60,971 nucleotides of DNA, taken from IMG/VR virus record IMGVR_UViG_3300025941_001121, positions 1-60,971 of that record; one strand, written 5' to 3'. The notes beneath the pieces are model-generated. The model was not told where the DNA came from and made no database searches. It saw only the letters and a program-made list of their open reading frames with translations. The translations under genes and the position numbers were made by a program. Origin of the DNA: a virus. Positions 3,562 to 43,306 of this stretch are shown here, piece after piece (positions within the stretch are counted from its first letter, which is position 1; each line of letters begins with the position of its first letter).

Positions 3562-3930
3562 TCAGCTTGCGCTCACGTCGCGCAGGCCGGTGATTTCGCT
3601 TTGCCGGGGGTTCGTCCGCGACACGTTTCCGTGGTCGTCGGTGAACCATCGCGAGGGCTTGGTCGTCGGGCGCGGGGCGTTGACTTTCAGCGTGTCGCTG
3701 AGCACCACCGAGTCCTCGTCGTCCTTTGCCGGCTCGACGCTGATCGTGATCGTTAGGCTGCCCTTCTTCTGGGTGTCCTTGACGGCCTTGACGACCGTCT
3801 GGAGTTCCTCGCTCGCTTCGTTGTGGAGACCACCGCCGCGGTGTTCCATGAGGATCGACGAGACCGTCTTGACCGGCGTCGGCGCCGCCTCGTCGGTCGA
3901 GTCTTTGACGGCTGCTGCTGGCTCAGCCAT
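3562..3930 (-). CDS. Hypothetical 122-residue protein
   Basis: Start taken at ATG 3930 (MAEPAAAVKDSTDEAAP), eight bases inside the end of the HNH gene. The middle (KKGSLTITISVEPAKDDED then VVLSDTLKVNAPRP) resembles small phage early proteins that accompany DUF2303 genes and ends in a short basic stretch followed by SEITGLRDVSAS. No catalytic motif seen. Confidence 0.7.
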   Translation of the reverse strand: MAEPAAAVKDSTDEAAPTPVKTVSSILMEHRGGGLHNEASEELQTVVKAVKDTQKKGSLTITISVEPAKDDEDSVVLSDTLKVNAPRPTTKPSRWFTDDHGNVSRTNPRQSEITGLRDVSAS

Positions 3931-4552: not shown

Positions 4553-4752
4553 CAGTACCGCCCGTCCGGCGCCGGCTCTTGAAGCTCTGCCTCTGCTCGC
4601 CGCGCCGCCTCGCTGAGGTGATAGTCGTCGGGGCCGGGAGGGGAGATGGCGACGAACCGCCCGTTCTGGGTTAGTTCGGCCAGCAATCCCTCCATGCCTT
4701 CGATGCGGGTCTCGAGGTCGTCGAACCGCTTTTCCAGATCGCGCTTCTTCAT
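4552..4752 (-). CDS. Small coiled-coil protein
   Basis: 66 residues. Residues 1-30 (MKKRDLEKRFDDLETRIEGM...) form a clear heptad helix; the C-terminus is Pro/Glu-rich. No enzymatic motif. Five bases downstream of its neighbour and overlapping the HNH start. Confidence 0.65.
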   Translation of the reverse strand: MKKRDLEKRFDDLETRIEGMEGLLAELTQNGRFVAISPPGPDDYHLSEAARRAEAELQEPAPDGRY

Positions 4753-36075: not shown

Positions 36076-39000
36076 TCAGGGGCGGACGCCGAGCCCGAAG
36101 CTTCCGGGCGTCGGGATCGGGGAGCGCGTCTCGTCGATGATCTCCTTGACGGCGACGCGCAGGTTCGGGTCTTTCGAGGTGGCGGTGACGCGGCCGTCGG
36201 GATGCACGTGCAGCTCCTCGATCACCAAGGTGGTCGGGCCACTCTGACCACCCAGCATCCGGCGGGTGTCGTCGGCGGAGTGAATGCGGGTGCCGGTAGG
36301 GAAGTGGGCGATCTCGGGACCCGCCTCGCCCACTAGGGCAACCCCTCCCTTGGCGAAGGCGCCCATGAAGGGGTAGGTGGCCTGGAACTGCGCCAGGGTG
36401 GGGCCGAGCGCGTTGGCGACCGCTTCACGCTGAGCGGCTTGGTGCAGGAGCGATTCCAGGAGCTGTTCGCGCTCGCTCTTTCCCTCCGAGCCGCCGGCGC
36501 CTCCCCCACTGCCACCGATCCCGGCTCCCGCCTGCTGGATCTTCAGGCCGAGTTCTTCGATCGAGGACTGGGTGTCCCAGATGGCGCCGCCGAACCGTCC
36601 CGCCTTCCGCGGCGGGGCGAGGTCCGAGGCGCCGAGGAGGCCGTGCTGATCGGGCCAGTGGATGCCCTGCACTTCGATCAGCGCGTCCTCGAAGCTCCCG
36701 GTGCCCGGGAGAGGCGGGGTGGGCGGAGAGACCGGTACGCCGTTCTTGACGCCGGGGTAGAAGAGGCTGCGGCCTTCGCCGAGGACCGTGCGCAGTTCTT
36801 TGTCCTGGGCACGGAGGGTGGGGAGGCGTGCCCGTTTCTTTTCCCGCTCGGCGATCTCTTTCTTCAGCCCGTCCGGCAGCTCTTTGGCTTTCGGGTGCTG
36901 CTGCTTGAACGCTTCGATATCAGCCTTGACGCGTTCGGAATAGGCGTTGATGTTTTCGATTTCCGTGTCGACTTCATAGATCTTCCCTTCCCAGTGCCAC
37001 TCCAGGGCGGAGACCGAGGGCTGGTCTTTGCCGAAACCGAAGTACTCGGCTTTGAGGATCGTGTTGCGCCACTCGGCCTCCTTGCCGAGGATGTCCTGGA
37101 AGGCGGGGCGCTCAGTCCCGTTGACGTAGCTTTCGAAGCTCTGCAGATAGGACTTTTCGGCTGCTTCGCGTTGGCTGTCGCTCGCGCTCGCGGGAAGGAT
37201 CGGTTCCTGCGGCTCGAGACCGACGATCTGTTCGACGTTCTGGCTCGCGATGTTGTAGGCGCGCTGTTTGGCTTCGATCAGCTGCTCGTAGCCGGTGACC
37301 TTGCCGAGGCCCCGGTGCAGCCGCTGCGAGAAGCGTTTTTTGACGACTTCCCGGCGCTGCTTGGCGCGGGCGTCCTGAAGCTGCTTGAGGCGGGCTTCCA
37401 GGGCGGTGATGTTGTGTTTAAGCACCTGGGCGATCGCTGGCCGGTTCTTTTCCGCCGCCAGTTTGGCCACCCGCCTGTACTGGCCCAGCTCTGCGCGGCG
37501 TTTGCCGATCTCCCTTTCGACGCCCTGGAGCGTCTTCGGGATCGAGGGGAAGTGCAGGGAGTCGGTGCGGCAGCCGTGGTAGATGGCCGGCACGTCTTCT
37601 TTGTAGGTGTGGGCGACTTCCTGGGCTTTGGTTTCGCCCGGGTTTTTTGAGTCCGTGTGGGTGTAGGGCGGGGTGCGATAGCCAGTGATTGGCCTGCCTC
37701 CCGCCGCTTCCCCGATGGTCGATTCGGCGACTTTGTTGGAGAAGTTCCCCGAGATCATCCTGTTGCCGCCGAGGGCGAGCCCGACGTGCCCGGAGCCGCC
37801 GATGACAACGACATCGCCATAGCGAGGCGACGAGTCGGCCGTGCCCCAGCCCCCCCATGCCGCCGCCAGCGGGTAGCCCGAGGGAGGCGTGATCCCGTGG
37901 GCCTGCATGTCGGCGCCGACGAAGGCTCCGCACCACTCGCCCGGGTAGCCGTAGTCGCGGGTCTGGCCGAGGTGGGCCTGCGCCCACTTGACGACGTGGG
38001 TGGCGTCGGCCGGGCCGGCGCTGCCGCTTCGGAGGAAGAGCGGGAGGCTGGCGGTCGACAGTGGCTTGCCGCCGCTCGGCGAACCACCCGCTGCGAGACC
38101 GACTAGGCCGCCCTCCTGCAAGAACTGGCCGCGCTGAATCCAACCCGGCCCCATCTCCCGTTCAACCCGTTCGGCGAAGCCCCGGTATCCACGCGGGTAG
38201 CGCGTATCGCTATAGCCGGTGAACACCTGCGGCGCTGCCCAGCGGGCGAAGTCGGTTGCGCCACCCTCTCGCTGCCAGCGGTCAAGACCGCCGCGCTGGA
38301 AGACATGTGCCCACTCGTGGAGGAGCGCCCCCTCGGCGTACTCGCCGTGCCGCATGAGCTGGTGCATCCAGCCCTTGTCGAAGAAGACCGCTTTACCACT
38401 GTCGGTCTGGACGACTCTGCCGACATCGCCATAGGTCCGGGTGAGGCCCTTGGCGAGATAGTCGCCCGGGGGATAGGGCGAGCTGCCAGAGCGGCCGTAG
38501 AGGTGTGCGGCCCTACCCCAGATGCTGGTGAGGAGGTGGTCCACCGCGGGCGAAGTGCCTTCGCTGACGCTGCCGCCATGCTGAAGGAAAACGGCCTTGC
38601 CGACGGTATCGGTCGGGAACGCTCCGGTCGAGAACCCGAGCTTGCGCACCCCGCCTTCGGTGACATCGATCGCGCGGTTGGTGAACCCGGCAGGCCCCAG
38701 ATCGGTGATCGGCAGCACTGCGGTGTGGCCGTTGATCGAGAGGCGGATGTAGTCGGGGTGCCCGGCCAGCGAATCGGCCATGAAGCCACGGGTGATCTTG
38801 TTGTCCCAGCCGCTTTCGGTGCCAGGGTGCAGGTTCAGCGCCACCCCGGGTCGGGAGGTGTTGCTGCCCCCGGCCGTGGCACCGCCGCTGAACCACGAGA
38901 CCTTGCCGCTCAACGAGTGGCCGTTGTAGGAGTGGGAACTGTCCGTCGTGCTTTTGGTCTTCTGCCTTGCGAGCACCGACTCCGCGCCCTTGAACACCTG

Positions 39001-41985
39001 ATGGATCGCCGCTTGCCCGATCGCCGCCAGCGGGCCGGCCGGGCCGGCCAGCTGCGGTTCGGGTCCGAGGTGGCCGCCTTTCTGGAAGCGGGGCACAGAG
39101 GCGTTCATGGCGGCGAGGTTCCCGGCGCCGATGCGGCTGACTTCGTGCGGCATGAAAACCCGCTCGCCCGGCTCGAGGACCACTGGGACGTGCCCGCCGC
39201 TCTGCAGGCCGTAGGCGCGGCTCGCTTCGCGGTTCATCACGAAGGAGTTGGCCGGCACGACGGTGCGCCAGGAATCGCCGGATCCGGTGCCCGGGACCGT
39301 GAAGCCGCCCGATTGCCGACCGAGGAAGGCAGCTGCGAGGTCGATCCCGGTCGTCGCGATCGCCTTCAGATCGAACGTGACCTTTTTCCCGACGCCCAGG
39401 CCTTTGAGGGCGCTGTTCAGGTTCTGACCGAGGATCCCCAGGCCTGAAGAAACGGCCATGTCCATCGACCCGGCGCTGACTGCGACTTCCTTGGCCATCA
39501 GGAATGCGGCGGCGGCCGTTTCTTTCTGCCCGATCTTCATGTGGGAGACGATCGAGCGGTTGACCTGGCCCGCCGTGTGTTCCATCCGGCGCAGCTTCCC
39601 TTCGGCCTGCCGCAGGTCCAGACCGCTATAGGCGCTGCTGGCTTCCCTGATCGCCTGGCGAATTTCGCCGACCTTCTGCTTCTGGTCGGAGATGACGCGG
39701 TTCAGCGCCCGGCCCTGTTCGCCGAAGCGGTGCTGGACCGGAGTCATGTCTTCGAGCGAACGCGCCCATTCCACGTTGCGGTTTTTGGCCGCCCGGATCG
39801 CTTCGGCGTAGTCGGACTGGTAGTGGGCGAGACGTTTGAACGACTGGTTGGCGGCTTCGGTGAGGTTCTTCGAAGCCCCTTCGGTCCTCATCCGCTGGCG
39901 AAGGCGTTCGATGTGGCGTTCTTCGACCGAGATCGCGACGGCGGAGGAGTGGACGACTTCGCCGATCGCCTTGCCGTGCTGCTTTTCGAGGAAATGCAGG
40001 TTTTCGAGCGCCCTGCGCTTGTCGTCAATCGCTTCGCCCTGCCGGCGGAACGCTTCGAAGACCCGCGTTTCGGCACGAAAGACTCCCAGCGAGCCTTCCT
40101 TTCCGTGCTTGCGGGCATCGGTGAGCCGTTCTTCGGCGTGACGCAGTTCATGCGAGGTGCGGTGGACGTGTTCCTGGGCTTCAGCGACGCGGACCTGGAC
40201 GCCCTTCAGGGCCTGGGCGCTGTCGTGCTCGTTGCCGAGGGCACGGGCCACGCTCTGCGCCGACTGGGCCATCTGCGCCTGCAGCGGCGTGAGCTTCTTC
40301 GTCGGCTCGAGCAGGCCGCCGATGAAGGAGCCGATCCCGGCGCCGACCATCGCCCCCTCGGGGCCGAGAAAGGCTCCCGCGATCCCCCCGACAACGGCGC
40401 CCCCCGCCTTGAAGCCGACCCCTTCCCAATCCCCGTGCAGGCCTGAATCGACGACGTTGACGAGTCCGGCCCCTGCGATGGCGACCGGCAGCGCTTTGAC
40501 GAGTCCACCGCCGAGAGCGCGGGCCGCGTCGGTGCCGAGCATGCGAAAACCACCGAGCTCGCCGCTCATTGCCAGCGAGGAGGCGGCTCGCAGGTCGCCG
40601 AAGAGGGCGCCCCCGGCCTCCACGGCTACAAGCCCGGTCATCGCCTCGCGGAGGGTGCCGACTGCGGTGATCAGCTTGCCGGTGACGATCAGGCCTCCCG
40701 CCAGGCCGATGCTGATGAGCCCAGCCTCTACGGCTGAGCTCTGCAAGCCCGGAGGCATGGACGAGAAGGCGTGCATCGCCCCGTCGGCGAAGTGCGCGAG
40801 ATGTTCAAACCCCGGCACGACTACCGGCAGCAGCGAGCCGCCGATTTCCACCATGTCGGCCTGAATGGAAGACCAGGCCTTTTCGAGTTTCACCGCCGGC
40901 TGTTCGTTCGTCCGTTTCACCGCGTCACCGAAGCGATCGGTGGTGCCTTTGATCTGCTGCATCTTCTGCTCGTAGCGGTCGAGCTGATTTAGCAGCACCA
41001 GCAGCACACGGCCGCGGCCACCGGGGAGAATGTCGCCGAGCACGTGTCCGGCCTCTACGCCCTCCCGCCCACCTGGGAGCTTGTCGAGATGCTCCCGCAG
41101 ATCGGAAAGGGCCGTGAGGAGACCGTGGTGCTTGTGCATGTCCACGGCGAGCGAGGACCCGGTGAGTCCGATCGACTTCAGGGCGCCCTTGGCCTTTTCG
41201 GTGGGATTCGTCAGGAAGTGAAAGGCGGTCGCGAGTTGTGCGGACCACCCGGAGACGTTGTTCGTCTCGTCTCCGAAGACGGCCAGAGCGCCGTTGATGT
41301 CCTGGAGGCTGAGGCCGACCTGCTTGGCCGAGGCGAGGACGCCGGTTCCGAGGGCATCCACCAACTGCGGGAGGCGGAGGTCGCCAGCGCCTACGGTCGC
41401 GTTGACTTCGGCGACGACCCGCTTGAAGTCTTCGGCCCCCTTGATGTCGGTGAACCACACCTGCGACAGCGTCTTCGCGGTTTCTTCGACGTCGGCGCGG
41501 CCAACCATCGCGAGCTTAGACGAGGCCCGTAGGGCATCCATCGCCTTCTTGCCTCGCAGTCCGGCTCCCTCGAGCCGGAACAGGGCGTTCGCCAGCTCGG
41601 TCGGTCCTTGCGGGGAGTTGCGGGCGAGACCGAGGACCGATTGTTCGAGGCGCCCGACTTCCTTCTGGGTGGCGCCGGCCTGGGTGTGGATCAGCTCCAT
41701 CGCCCGCGTGTAGTCCATGCTCGCCTTCCCGGCCGCGTAGCCGAAGAGGCCCAGCGGAACGGTGGCTAGGCCGATTGCCTTGCCGACTCCAGTGATCGTG
41801 CGCCCAGTCGCCTCCATGCGCTTGCCGGCGCTGACGACGCGTTCGCTGCTTCCGACGACGCGACCTAGCGAGCGGTCGGCGTTGGCGGCCGTGGCCGCGA
41901 GCTGGCCGTCGAACTTCGCGAGGCTCGCGCTCGCCGGGCCGGTCTGGGCCTCGACGATGACGCGCAACACCGCAGCGGCGTTCAC
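36076..41985 (-). CDS. Tape measure protein with wall-degrading domains
   Basis: 1969 residues from GTG 41985. Residues 1-400 match the TP901-type tail tape measure core (ASMDYTRAMELIHTQAGATQ, NALFRLEGAGLRGKKAMDAL), then hydrophobic segments (about 420-570) and coiled coils. Three embedded domains follow. The first is a double-psi beta-barrel at about 1025-1135 (KVSWFSGGATAGGSN, LPITDLGPAGFTNRAIDVTE). The second is a zinc-peptidase-like region with HEWAH near 1223. The third is an NlpC/CHAP-like domain with GEWCGAFVG (C1352) and GHVGLALGG (H1400). It sets tail length and should open peptidoglycan during DNA entry. Confidence 0.9.
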   Translation of the reverse strand: MNAAAVLRVIVEAQTGPASASLAKFDGQLAATAANADRSLGRVVGSSERVVSAGKRMEATGRTITGVGKAIGLATVPLGLFGYAAGKASMDYTRAMELIHTQAGATQKEVGRLEQSVLGLARNSPQGPTELANALFRLEGAGLRGKKAMDALRASSKLAMVGRADVEETAKTLSQVWFTDIKGAEDFKRVVAEVNATVGAGDLRLPQLVDALGTGVLASAKQVGLSLQDINGALAVFGDETNNVSGWSAQLATAFHFLTNPTEKAKGALKSIGLTGSSLAVDMHKHHGLLTALSDLREHLDKLPGGREGVEAGHVLGDILPGGRGRVLLVLLNQLDRYEQKMQQIKGTTDRFGDAVKRTNEQPAVKLEKAWSSIQADMVEIGGSLLPVVVPGFEHLAHFADGAMHAFSSMPPGLQSSAVEAGLISIGLAGGLIVTGKLITAVGTLREAMTGLVAVEAGGALFGDLRAASSLAMSGELGGFRMLGTDAARALGGGLVKALPVAIAGAGLVNVVDSGLHGDWEGVGFKAGGAVVGGIAGAFLGPEGAMVGAGIGSFIGGLLEPTKKLTPLQAQMAQSAQSVARALGNEHDSAQALKGVQVRVAEAQEHVHRTSHELRHAEERLTDARKHGKEGSLGVFRAETRVFEAFRRQGEAIDDKRRALENLHFLEKQHGKAIGEVVHSSAVAISVEERHIERLRQRMRTEGASKNLTEAANQSFKRLAHYQSDYAEAIRAAKNRNVEWARSLEDMTPVQHRFGEQGRALNRVISDQKQKVGEIRQAIREASSAYSGLDLRQAEGKLRRMEHTAGQVNRSIVSHMKIGQKETAAAAFLMAKEVAVSAGSMDMAVSSGLGILGQNLNSALKGLGVGKKVTFDLKAIATTGIDLAAAFLGRQSGGFTVPGTGSGDSWRTVVPANSFVMNREASRAYGLQSGGHVPVVLEPGERVFMPHEVSRIGAGNLAAMNASVPRFQKGGHLGPEPQLAGPAGPLAAIGQAAIHQVFKGAESVLARQKTKSTTDSSHSYNGHSLSGKVSWFSGGATAGGSNTSRPGVALNLHPGTESGWDNKITRGFMADSLAGHPDYIRLSINGHTAVLPITDLGPAGFTNRAIDVTEGGVRKLGFSTGAFPTDTVGKAVFLQHGGSVSEGTSPAVDHLLTSIWGRAAHLYGRSGSSPYPPGDYLAKGLTRTYGDVGRVVQTDSGKAVFFDKGWMHQLMRHGEYAEGALLHEWAHVFQRGGLDRWQREGGATDFARWAAPQVFTGYSDTRYPRGYRGFAERVEREMGPGWIQRGQFLQEGGLVGLAAGGSPSGGKPLSTASLPLFLRSGSAGPADATHVVKWAQAHLGQTRDYGYPGEWCGAFVGADMQAHGITPPSGYPLAAAWGGWGTADSSPRYGDVVVIGGSGHVGLALGGNRMISGNFSNKVAESTIGEAAGGRPITGYRTPPYTHTDSKNPGETKAQEVAHTYKEDVPAIYHGCRTDSLHFPSIPKTLQGVEREIGKRRAELGQYRRVAKLAAEKNRPAIAQVLKHNITALEARLKQLQDARAKQRREVVKKRFSQRLHRGLGKVTGYEQLIEAKQRAYNIASQNVEQIVGLEPQEPILPASASDSQREAAEKSYLQSFESYVNGTERPAFQDILGKEAEWRNTILKAEYFGFGKDQPSVSALEWHWEGKIYEVDTEIENINAYSERVKADIEAFKQQHPKAKELPDGLKKEIAEREKKRARLPTLRAQDKELRTVLGEGRSLFYPGVKNGVPVSPPTPPLPGTGSFEDALIEVQGIHWPDQHGLLGASDLAPPRKAGRFGGAIWDTQSSIEELGLKIQQAGAGIGGSGGGAGGSEGKSEREQLLESLLHQAAQREAVANALGPTLAQFQATYPFMGAFAKGGVALVGEAGPEIAHFPTGTRIHSADDTRRMLGGQSGPTTLVIEELHVHPDGRVTATSKDPNLRVAVKEIIDETRSPIPTPGSFGLGVRP

Positions 41986-42063
41986 GACGCCGCCCGGCGC
42001 CTGGAGTTGGAGGAAGGTCTACGATGCAAGTTCCGTGACTCCAGGTCGGAGAGGGGCAGTTAC

Positions 42064-42369
42064 GTGGGCCTACTGAGAGGCCGGGAAAAGCAGCGCCGCT
42101 CGACACGCCCGGTCGCCGTAGGCGAGGGAGACGTAGAGGTCCACCTCCTCGCCGTCGCGGGCAAGAAGGTGCCCGTGATCGAGGTGCTGCGAGCGCGAAT
42201 GGCGCTTCGTCTCGGCGCCGCTCACGCGGTGGTCGAGGAAGCCCCGACGATCATCGGCCGCCACCTGGAGGCCGATGTCGCCGAGGGCTTCGCCCGGGAA
42301 CTACGTGAAGCCGGCGCCTCGGTGGAGCTACTCTCAGTGACCGAGAGGCCCCTTCGAGTCGTGCGCTAG
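42064..42369 (+). CDS. Plus-strand protein resembling the L7/L12 C-terminal domain
   Basis: 101 residues from GTG 42064; GGAGAGGGG stands nine bases upstream. Residues 22-95 follow ribosomal protein bL12 C-terminal domain: VEVHLLAVAGKKVPVIEVLR, LRLGAAHAVVEEAPTII, then VAEGFARELREAGASVELLS, with VI..(V/L)R, LG/A..A...VE.AP and AGA.VE in register. The N-terminal dimer domain is missing. It opposes the tail operon between tape measure and chaperone genes and ends five bases from the chaperone stop. Possible roles are translational-GTPase binding or ribosome interference; unproven. Confidence 0.7.
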   Translation: MGLLRGREKQRRSTRPVAVGEGDVEVHLLAVAGKKVPVIEVLRARMALRLGAAHAVVEEAPTIIGRHLEADVAEGFARELREAGASVELLSVTERPLRVVR

Positions 42370-42373
42370 CGCC

Positions 42374-42529
42374 CTAGCTTTCGGCCCTGCGCTTTTCGCG
42401 TTCGCGGATGAAGAGCTGCCAGGCGCGGAACTCATAGACATCCATCCGCTGTTCCAACTCCCCGACGGTCATCCCCAGCTCGATGGCCAGTTCGAACCGG
42501 AAGGGGATGTCGGTTTCAGGAACCGCGAA
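42374..42529 (-). CDS. Tail assembly chaperone, frameshift extension (T part)
   Basis: About 50 codons in the +1 frame past the G-type chaperone: AVPETDIPFRFELAIELGMT, ELEQRMDVYEFRAWQLFIRE, ending EKRRAES. The 'L.LGMTV.EL..RM...E...W' pattern is typical of the T portion of siphovirus gpGT chaperones. It has no start of its own, so it is made as a fusion of about 170 residues by ribosomal frameshifting near 42527-42530. Confidence 0.8.
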   Translation of the reverse strand, partial: FAVPETDIPFRFELAIELGMTVGELEQRMDVYEFRAWQLFIREREKRRAES

Positions 42530-42887
42530 ACTCGGTCGCTAGAGCGCGGCCCTCCTCCTCGCTGGCGCCAGCCAGGTTGGCGCAGCCCCGGTAGATCCGG
42601 CTCATCGTCGGCGCTGGCCAGTCCTTGACGATCTCATGCCATTCGGACTTGCTGAGATCGGGGTCCGCGCAGTAGGTCGCGAGCAGGTCGGCGATGACCT
42701 CGGGGCTCGAGATCCCGTTGTCCTTGCGCTCGTCAGAGGCCCGTTCGAGGGCATGGGTGTGGTCGATGCTCGGCGTGCGCAGAAGCACGCCCGCATCCTT
42801 CTCTCCCAGCTCGGGAAGCGGCAGCTCTTCCTCGGCGAAGTTGAACTTCGCCTTGGCCTTGAGCTGCTCTTTGGTCAGTCGTTTCAC
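42516..42887 (-). CDS. Tail assembly chaperone (G part)
   Basis: 123 residues, acidic helical protein (FAEEELPLPELGEKDAGVLL, SSPEVIADLLATYCADPDLS). Lies between the major tail protein and the tape measure, the invariant place of tail chaperones, and has the overlapping T frame. The two products should coat and fold the tape measure before tail polymerisation. Confidence 0.8.
   Translation of the reverse strand: MKRLTKEQLKAKAKFNFAEEELPLPELGEKDAGVLLRTPSIDHTHALERASDERKDNGISSPEVIADLLATYCADPDLSKSEWHEIVKDWPAPTMSRIYRGCANLAGASEEEGRALATEFRGS
42527..42530 (-). promoter_or_regulatory. Putative +1 frameshift site TTT-C
   Basis: In the G frame the codons are GAG TTT CGC GGT TCC TGA. Slipping TTT to TTC by +1 moves the Phe-tRNA onto an equally good codon and joins the T frame (TTC GCG GTT CCT). 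A -1 shift here meets a TGA early, so +1 (or -2) is required. Confidence 0.6.
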
Positions 42888-43306
42888 GAGGTCAGTTCCT
42901 TACAGCCTTCGCCGCCGGCGGGTTTGAAGGTGCAGTCCGTGGTCTCGGCCGAACCGACCTGCCCGTCGAGCGGGGTGTATTCCGGCAGGATCGCTTCTTC
43001 GATTTCCCAGCCGGGGTTCGTTTTGGAGACCGTCCCGGAGGCGTGGAGGACTTTGATGGGGAAGGGCGTGTTCGAGCCCTGGAGCGGCGCCAGCGTCCGG
43101 TTGACGGAACCTTCCTCGTGGTCCTGGAAGAAGGTGACCTGGATCGAATCGTCGCTGATGCCGAGCAGGGTTTCTTTCGATTTCGCCCCCATCGCCGTCA
43201 CGTCCTGTTCATCGGCTTTTTTCGGGACGGTGACTTTCTGGACGTGGTCGCTGAGGTCGACGCCGTTGACGAAAACCTTGGCGTCACGGAGGATGCTCTT
43301 CGCCAT
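42884..43306 (-). CDS. Major tail protein
   Basis: 140 residues. AKVFVNGVDLSDHVQKVTVP, TAMGAKSKETLLGISDDSIQ and the beta-rich remainder match tube proteins of siphoviruses with lambda gpV-like fold (NG.DLSD start is typical). Precedes the chaperones. It should polymerise into the tail tube. Confidence 0.85.
   Translation of the reverse strand: MAKSILRDAKVFVNGVDLSDHVQKVTVPKKADEQDVTAMGAKSKETLLGISDDSIQVTFFQDHEEGSVNRTLAPLQGSNTPFPIKVLHASGTVSKTNPGWEIEEAILPEYTPLDGQVGSAETTDCTFKPAGGEGCKELTS

Follow-up and report, generated by a model that had tools for sequence, protein, structure and literature searches.

Genes at the locus

The window analyzed here is an entire viral record of 60,971 bases, and because its genome has an integrase, the phage is probably temperate. 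On the minus strand the tail genes follow one another, and among them, between the start of the tape measure gene (41985) and the stop of the tail assembly chaperone (42374-42376), stands a single gene on the plus strand that encodes the C-terminal domain (CTD) of the ribosomal stalk protein bL12 (L7/L12), in the place and orientation originally predicted (Table 1). Two related phage contigs, IMGVR_UViG_3300009553_000023 (G001) and IMGVR_UViG_3300044694_000148 (G002), carry orthologs. A TTG at 42007 was dropped as a candidate start because the ortholog begins at the GTG equivalent to 42064.

Table 1. Features in and around the bL12 CTD gene of the window
Feature	Position	Strand	Description and evidence
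bL12 CTD gene	42064-42369	+	GTG start, 101 aa; PF00542 match, overlay on 1ctf, orthologs in two phage contigs
bL12 domain proper	42136-42330 (residues 25-89)	+	PF00542 match
Shine-Dalgarno-like GGAGAGGGG	42048-42056	+	7 nt 5' of the GTG; purine-rich counterpart in 3/3 phages
Upstream block TACGAT...GTGACTCC	42020-42042	+	Shared almost unchanged by window and G001; G002 lacks it
Tail assembly chaperone, first frame	42516-42887	-	123 aa; 76% and 55% identity in the two relatives
Tail chaperone, second frame	42374-42541	-	Frame translations in three phages; stop at 42374-42376
Tape measure protein	36076-41985	-	PHROGs tail length tape measure protein, E 4.2e-36
Major tail protein	42884-43306	-	PHROGs major tail protein, E 1.7e-20

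The first frame of the chaperone matched nothing in Pfam or PHROGs, so its name rests on position and frame arrangement. The second frame is offset from the first by +1 or -2, in an identical layout in all three phages, and is presumably reached via a frameshift; around the stop, the overlap of the two frames is nearly identical in the window and G001. The stop codons of the bL12 gene and of the second chaperone frame converge, 4 bases apart. At this convergent junction strong hairpins are predicted in G001 and G002 (L002, approximately 3600-3640; L019, approximately 4680-4730), and no T run was seen by eye beside the hairpins in either phage.

Evidence that the frame is a gene

Compared with its ortholog in G001, the window gene has a dN of 0.362 and a dS of 0.936 (NG86, 99 codons), and dN/dS fell below 1 by all three methods for this one pair, with a dS high enough to make the ratio rough. 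Tail genes in the same comparison are under stronger constraint, and the bL12 CTD protein, at 56% identity between the window and G001 versus 76 to 87% for its neighbors, has evolved faster. In all three copies G+C is low at second codon positions, as in genes. The ribosome-binding site of its own that had been ascribed to the gene recurs in all three phages, as a G-rich or purine-rich Shine-Dalgarno-like stretch 6 to 7 nt 5' of the start. A search for sigma-70-type promoters found none, and the promoter type of the host may differ; the conserved block upstream of the gene is possibly a promoter or operator.

Because two related contigs carry the frame opposite their tail genes and dN/dS is below 1, the frame is a gene and not a chance one. 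A spurious or decaying frame would fit the antisense position, in a stretch through which tail transcription has to pass, and the lack of a recognized promoter, but it is barely credible given that the frame is open in three orthologs, each with a Shine-Dalgarno-like site, that selection is apparent in the one pair compared, and that neither of the two phages compared has a stop-free antisense frame.

Domain identity and predicted fold

PF00542 (Ribosomal_L12, the CTD) matches the window protein with an E value of 1.8e-11, and the scores of the three orthologs (44.6, 54.8, and 47.7 bits for the window, G001, and G002) all exceed the family cut-off of 25.9. The N-terminal dimerization domain, PF16320, was not matched in any of the three, as the original prediction had held; a control cellular bL12 (L099) showed both domains, with PF16320 at 1.1e-21. 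The window and G001 proteins also stay below the TIGR00855 equivalog cut-off, scoring 36.5 and 47.8 bits against 84.4. By sequence, the best chains in the PDB are those of the Escherichia coli L7/L12 CTD, at approximately 3e-5.

Structure prediction leads to the same family. From an input alignment of two sequences, AlphaFold returned five models with mean pLDDT values from 77.7 to 44.6, of which the best was used. Its topology is strand-helix-helix-strand-helix-strand, with pLDDT values of 87 to 95 over 10-residue blocks of residues 21 to 90 and low confidence for the first 15 to 19 and the last 7 residues. The model overlays the E. coli CTD structure 1ctf with a Z score of 13.6 and a root mean square deviation of 0.7 Å over 68 residues at 37% identity, and L7/L12 of Mycobacterium tuberculosis with a Z score of 12.5. 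Both the profile search and the overlay proposed for checking the original assignment thus uphold it: the frame at 42064-42369 encodes a bL12 CTD. The window protein had no match in PHROGs, and the PADLOC models gave zero matches to all three orthologs.

Distribution among related phages

Relatives were obtained through tape measure and capsid queries. G001, reached with the tape measure, matches the window in the location and direction of the gene; the G002 copy, which encodes a protein with 35% identity to that of the window, lies after the chaperone gene and runs opposite to it, on a contig that stops near the expected start of the tape measure gene. Capsid identity to the window is 84% for G001 and 77% for G002. 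A capsid alignment, which found 465 confirmed viral stretches of which 80 were kept, provided a wider sample, and PF00542 was run against every one of the 80. Only the two closest by capsid, G001 and G002, had a match; the next-closest capsids, at 53 to 60% identity, had none, and the 78 records lacking a match include many fragments, so that absence is not certain for each. Three bacterial genomes were searched alongside, and two of them contain a full-profile bL12 match.

More distant tail relatives lack the insertion as well. In Rhodococcus phages Shagrat, Madraxi, and REQ1, Pontimonas phage phiPsal1, and contig L167, the tape measure gene and the gene preceding it have no other gene between them (0/5), as judged by annotation in the first four and by a list of open reading frames in L167. 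Phage morons are genes that are absent in relatives and sit between conserved genes, with a promoter and terminator of their own. Because the five distant tail relatives lack the insert and 78 of the 80 capsid-related records lack a match, the bL12 CTD gene looks like an accessory, moron-like gene, and an insertion that became fixed in a single small clade; the earlier description of it as cargo agrees with this distribution.

Other routes reached little more. Used alone, the bL12 protein as query recovered no phage record, no genome contig, and no viral contig except G001. A query with the major tail protein alone did not reach the gene-bearing relatives, the tape measure alignment returned G001 again, and further tail queries yielded a single additional contig, the more distant L167, which lacks the gene. 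Genome contigs that might point to a host were limited to Methylococcaceae, Nitrospirae, and Desulfobacteraceae records, all with distant capsids. Plasmid records gave 18 matches covering 57 to 71% of the query, mostly annotated as rplL or located in chromosome-sized records; rplL is also annotated on 11 Clostridioides difficile plasmid records of 97 to 150 kb (H110-H120).

The helix 4-5 surface

Factor binding by bL12 is attributed to a conserved positive site on helices 4 and 5 (PMC6753160). High conservation is described for residues K65, K70, K81, and K84, and weakened EF-Tu binding for replacements of K65 or K70, even by Arg (PMC10602876), while K65R is reported to be active in poly(Phe) synthesis (PMC6110070). 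We compared the phage proteins with 61 cellular CTDs, 3 of which were left out of invariant counts because of gaps, leaving 58 with the full segment; as 59 of the 61 come from the loci that scored highest in two draws by phylum, the comparison is weighted toward typical bL12s, and the host group of the phage is not known to be represented in either draw.

Within this set, 30 positions are at least 90% conserved, and the window, G001, and G002 proteins keep 16, 17, and 14 of them. The losses fall on charged residues: of 20 uncharged conserved positions the three proteins keep 14, 14, and 13, and of 10 charged ones only 2, 3, and 1. The fold core is retained in all three, but the contact lysines of the GTPase-facing side, whose conservation the original prediction had put forward for checking, are mostly lost. 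In the order window, G001, and G002, position 65 is K, K, and R; position 70 is E, H, and R; position 81 is G, S, and S; and position 84 is H, H, and V. All three proteins have Arg in place of Gly79 and retain R73, and G002 has a two-residue insertion at the junction of helices 4 and 5. Each of the three helix 4-5 segments carries a net charge of +3, within the range of +1 to +4 seen in the 58 cellular bL12s.

Since K70, K81, and K84 are changed and Gly79 is replaced by Arg while the net charge is still +3, the helix 4-5 face is rearranged rather than neutralized. This counts against the domain being a faithful copy of the host stalk, yet it is compatible with binding of translation factors. 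With the conserved charged positions mostly replaced, even though helices 4 and 5 keep their net charge, the titration of IF2, EF-Tu, or EF-G suggested originally is unproven.

Comparison with known phage and cellular proteins

The original prediction knew of no phage role for this fold, a statement overtaken by the literature. Mizuno et al. (2019, PMC6375957) report bL12 domains in seven cultivated proteobacterial phages and in uncultivated ones, in variable genomic context, and L7/L12 is listed among the genes of huge phages (PMC7162821). Phage copies of the bL12 domain have thus been known since 2019, and the copy in the window clade is an additional case; among the open-licence papers searched, neither this clade nor a decoy built on the stalk domain was seen to be reported.

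Like the proteins of that study, the window protein is a bL12 CTD in a phage genome, and there too the domain is sometimes the entire protein, as in the 98-aa protein of Ralstonia phage RSB3 (PMC6375957). The phage copies described there are given as approximately 30 to 40% identical to cellular bL12, and purifying selection is reported for virus ribosomal protein genes (PMC6375957), with which our single-pair dN/dS agrees. In contrast, the seven phages are said to keep the residues contacting uL11, EF-G, and EF-Tu (PMC6375957), while here the conserved charged positions are mostly replaced. The present gene also differs in belonging to a distinct clade, whose major tail protein is nearest to those of Rhodococcus and Pontimonas phages, and in lying opposite a tail operon. 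It shares the CTD fold with cellular bL12 and differs from it in lacking the N-terminal dimerization domain and in scoring under the TIGR00855 cut-off.

Further phage proteins score above the PF00542 cut-off, namely EGole gp3, DFL12phi1 orf75, a fusion protein of REC1, and a large protein of phiA41. In the first three, the match is confined to profile positions of approximately 5 to 37. In Pseudomonas phage REC1 (L106, 1270-1743), a release-factor-type RF-1 domain is fused to the first half of the bL12 CTD. In Pectobacterium phage phiA41 (L104, 1093-3201), unlike the stand-alone window protein, the domain lies inside a 702-aa protein, which in another record is called an RIIB lysis inhibitor and whose gene adjoins one annotated as an HSP90/gyrase-type ATPase. 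Partial CTD matches (within profile positions of approximately 5 to 55, including the factor-binding helix hairpin) occur in several phage and bacterial proteins, in L102 (1231-1671) and L105 (1435-1755) and in genomes G119, G126, G133, G203, and G218. A cellular bL12 query against 50,697 phage records found 69 at E values up to 1, part of which, with full-length bL12 at 60 to 80% identity, look like host DNA.

Candidate functions

We tentatively favor, with somewhat less than even confidence, a stalk mimic that acts off the ribosome with an altered choice of partner. The product of this accessory gene would be a soluble, probably monomeric bL12 CTD. Without an N-terminal domain it would neither dimerize nor dock on uL10 in the usual way, and its action would be expected to take place away from the ribosome. 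Its helix 4-5 face, which resembles that of the stalk, may engage a protein whose usual target is the stalk, the rearranged positive surface shifting partner choice instead of reproducing the host stalk exactly. The likeliest partner would be a translational GTPase or a stalk-docking regulator, and the outcome could be a tuning of host translation in lysogeny or infection. In favor of such a mimic are the domain match and predicted fold, the missing dimerization domain, the dN/dS value, the distribution among relatives, and a helix 4-5 net charge in the cellular range. Against it stand the few conserved charged positions kept, the reported effect of K65 and K70 replacements on EF-Tu binding, an evolution faster than that of neighboring genes, and the lack of a recognized promoter.

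Those same observations suit a second reading, which we consider somewhat unlikely, that a CTD captured from a bacterium has drifted into a job unrelated to the stalk, such as a small phage protein-protein adaptor. Each of the three orthologs has lost most of the charged conserved positions and retains more of the uncharged ones, the protein changes faster than the tail genes, and G002 has its insertion between helices 4 and 5. However, the net positive charge of this segment is unchanged, R73 is present and position 65 is basic throughout, and drift of surface residues is common without a change of role.

Less likely still is a decoy, in which the free domain would capture a defense effector that uses the bL12 stalk to reach the ribosome, of the type of the CARF-RelE ribonuclease Cami1. 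The model matches the bL12 domain chain in the Cami1-ribosome entry 8phj, the title of the 2023 Science paper on Cami1 includes "ribosomal stalk-captured," and an arms race would suit a gene that is accessory, evolves fast, and encodes an altered surface. On the other side, PADLOC models do not match the protein. If true, this reading would mean that translation is shielded from stalk-docking defense ribonucleases during infection or in the lysogen.

That the protein takes the place of host bL12 in the ribosome, a role proposed for other ribosomal proteins of phages, seems improbable. Viral bL12 and bS21 expressed in E. coli are reported in ribosome fractions, but the same study states that purification of ribosomes with tagged viral bL12 was not achieved (PMC6375957). 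The dimerization and uL10-docking domain is absent here, for which reason incorporation into ribosomes in the ordinary way appears unlikely from the protein's domain content. A protease adaptor like ClpS, which has the same overall fold, aligns with the model at Z scores of 8 to 10, and is annotated in phages, is more improbable again: the best ClpS Z score is 9.9 versus 13.6 for the bL12 CTD, and the window protein matches bL12 profiles and not the ClpS family (Pfam, E up to 1).

Significance

Unrelated phages carry copies of the bL12 stalk domain, in various settings. The gene described here is a compact, stand-alone case in three natural variants, in which the contact surface is altered and the fold is kept, making it a good subject for a partner search. 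Such a search would serve the question of whether phages steer translation, or blunt defenses that dock on the stalk, with a domain of this kind.
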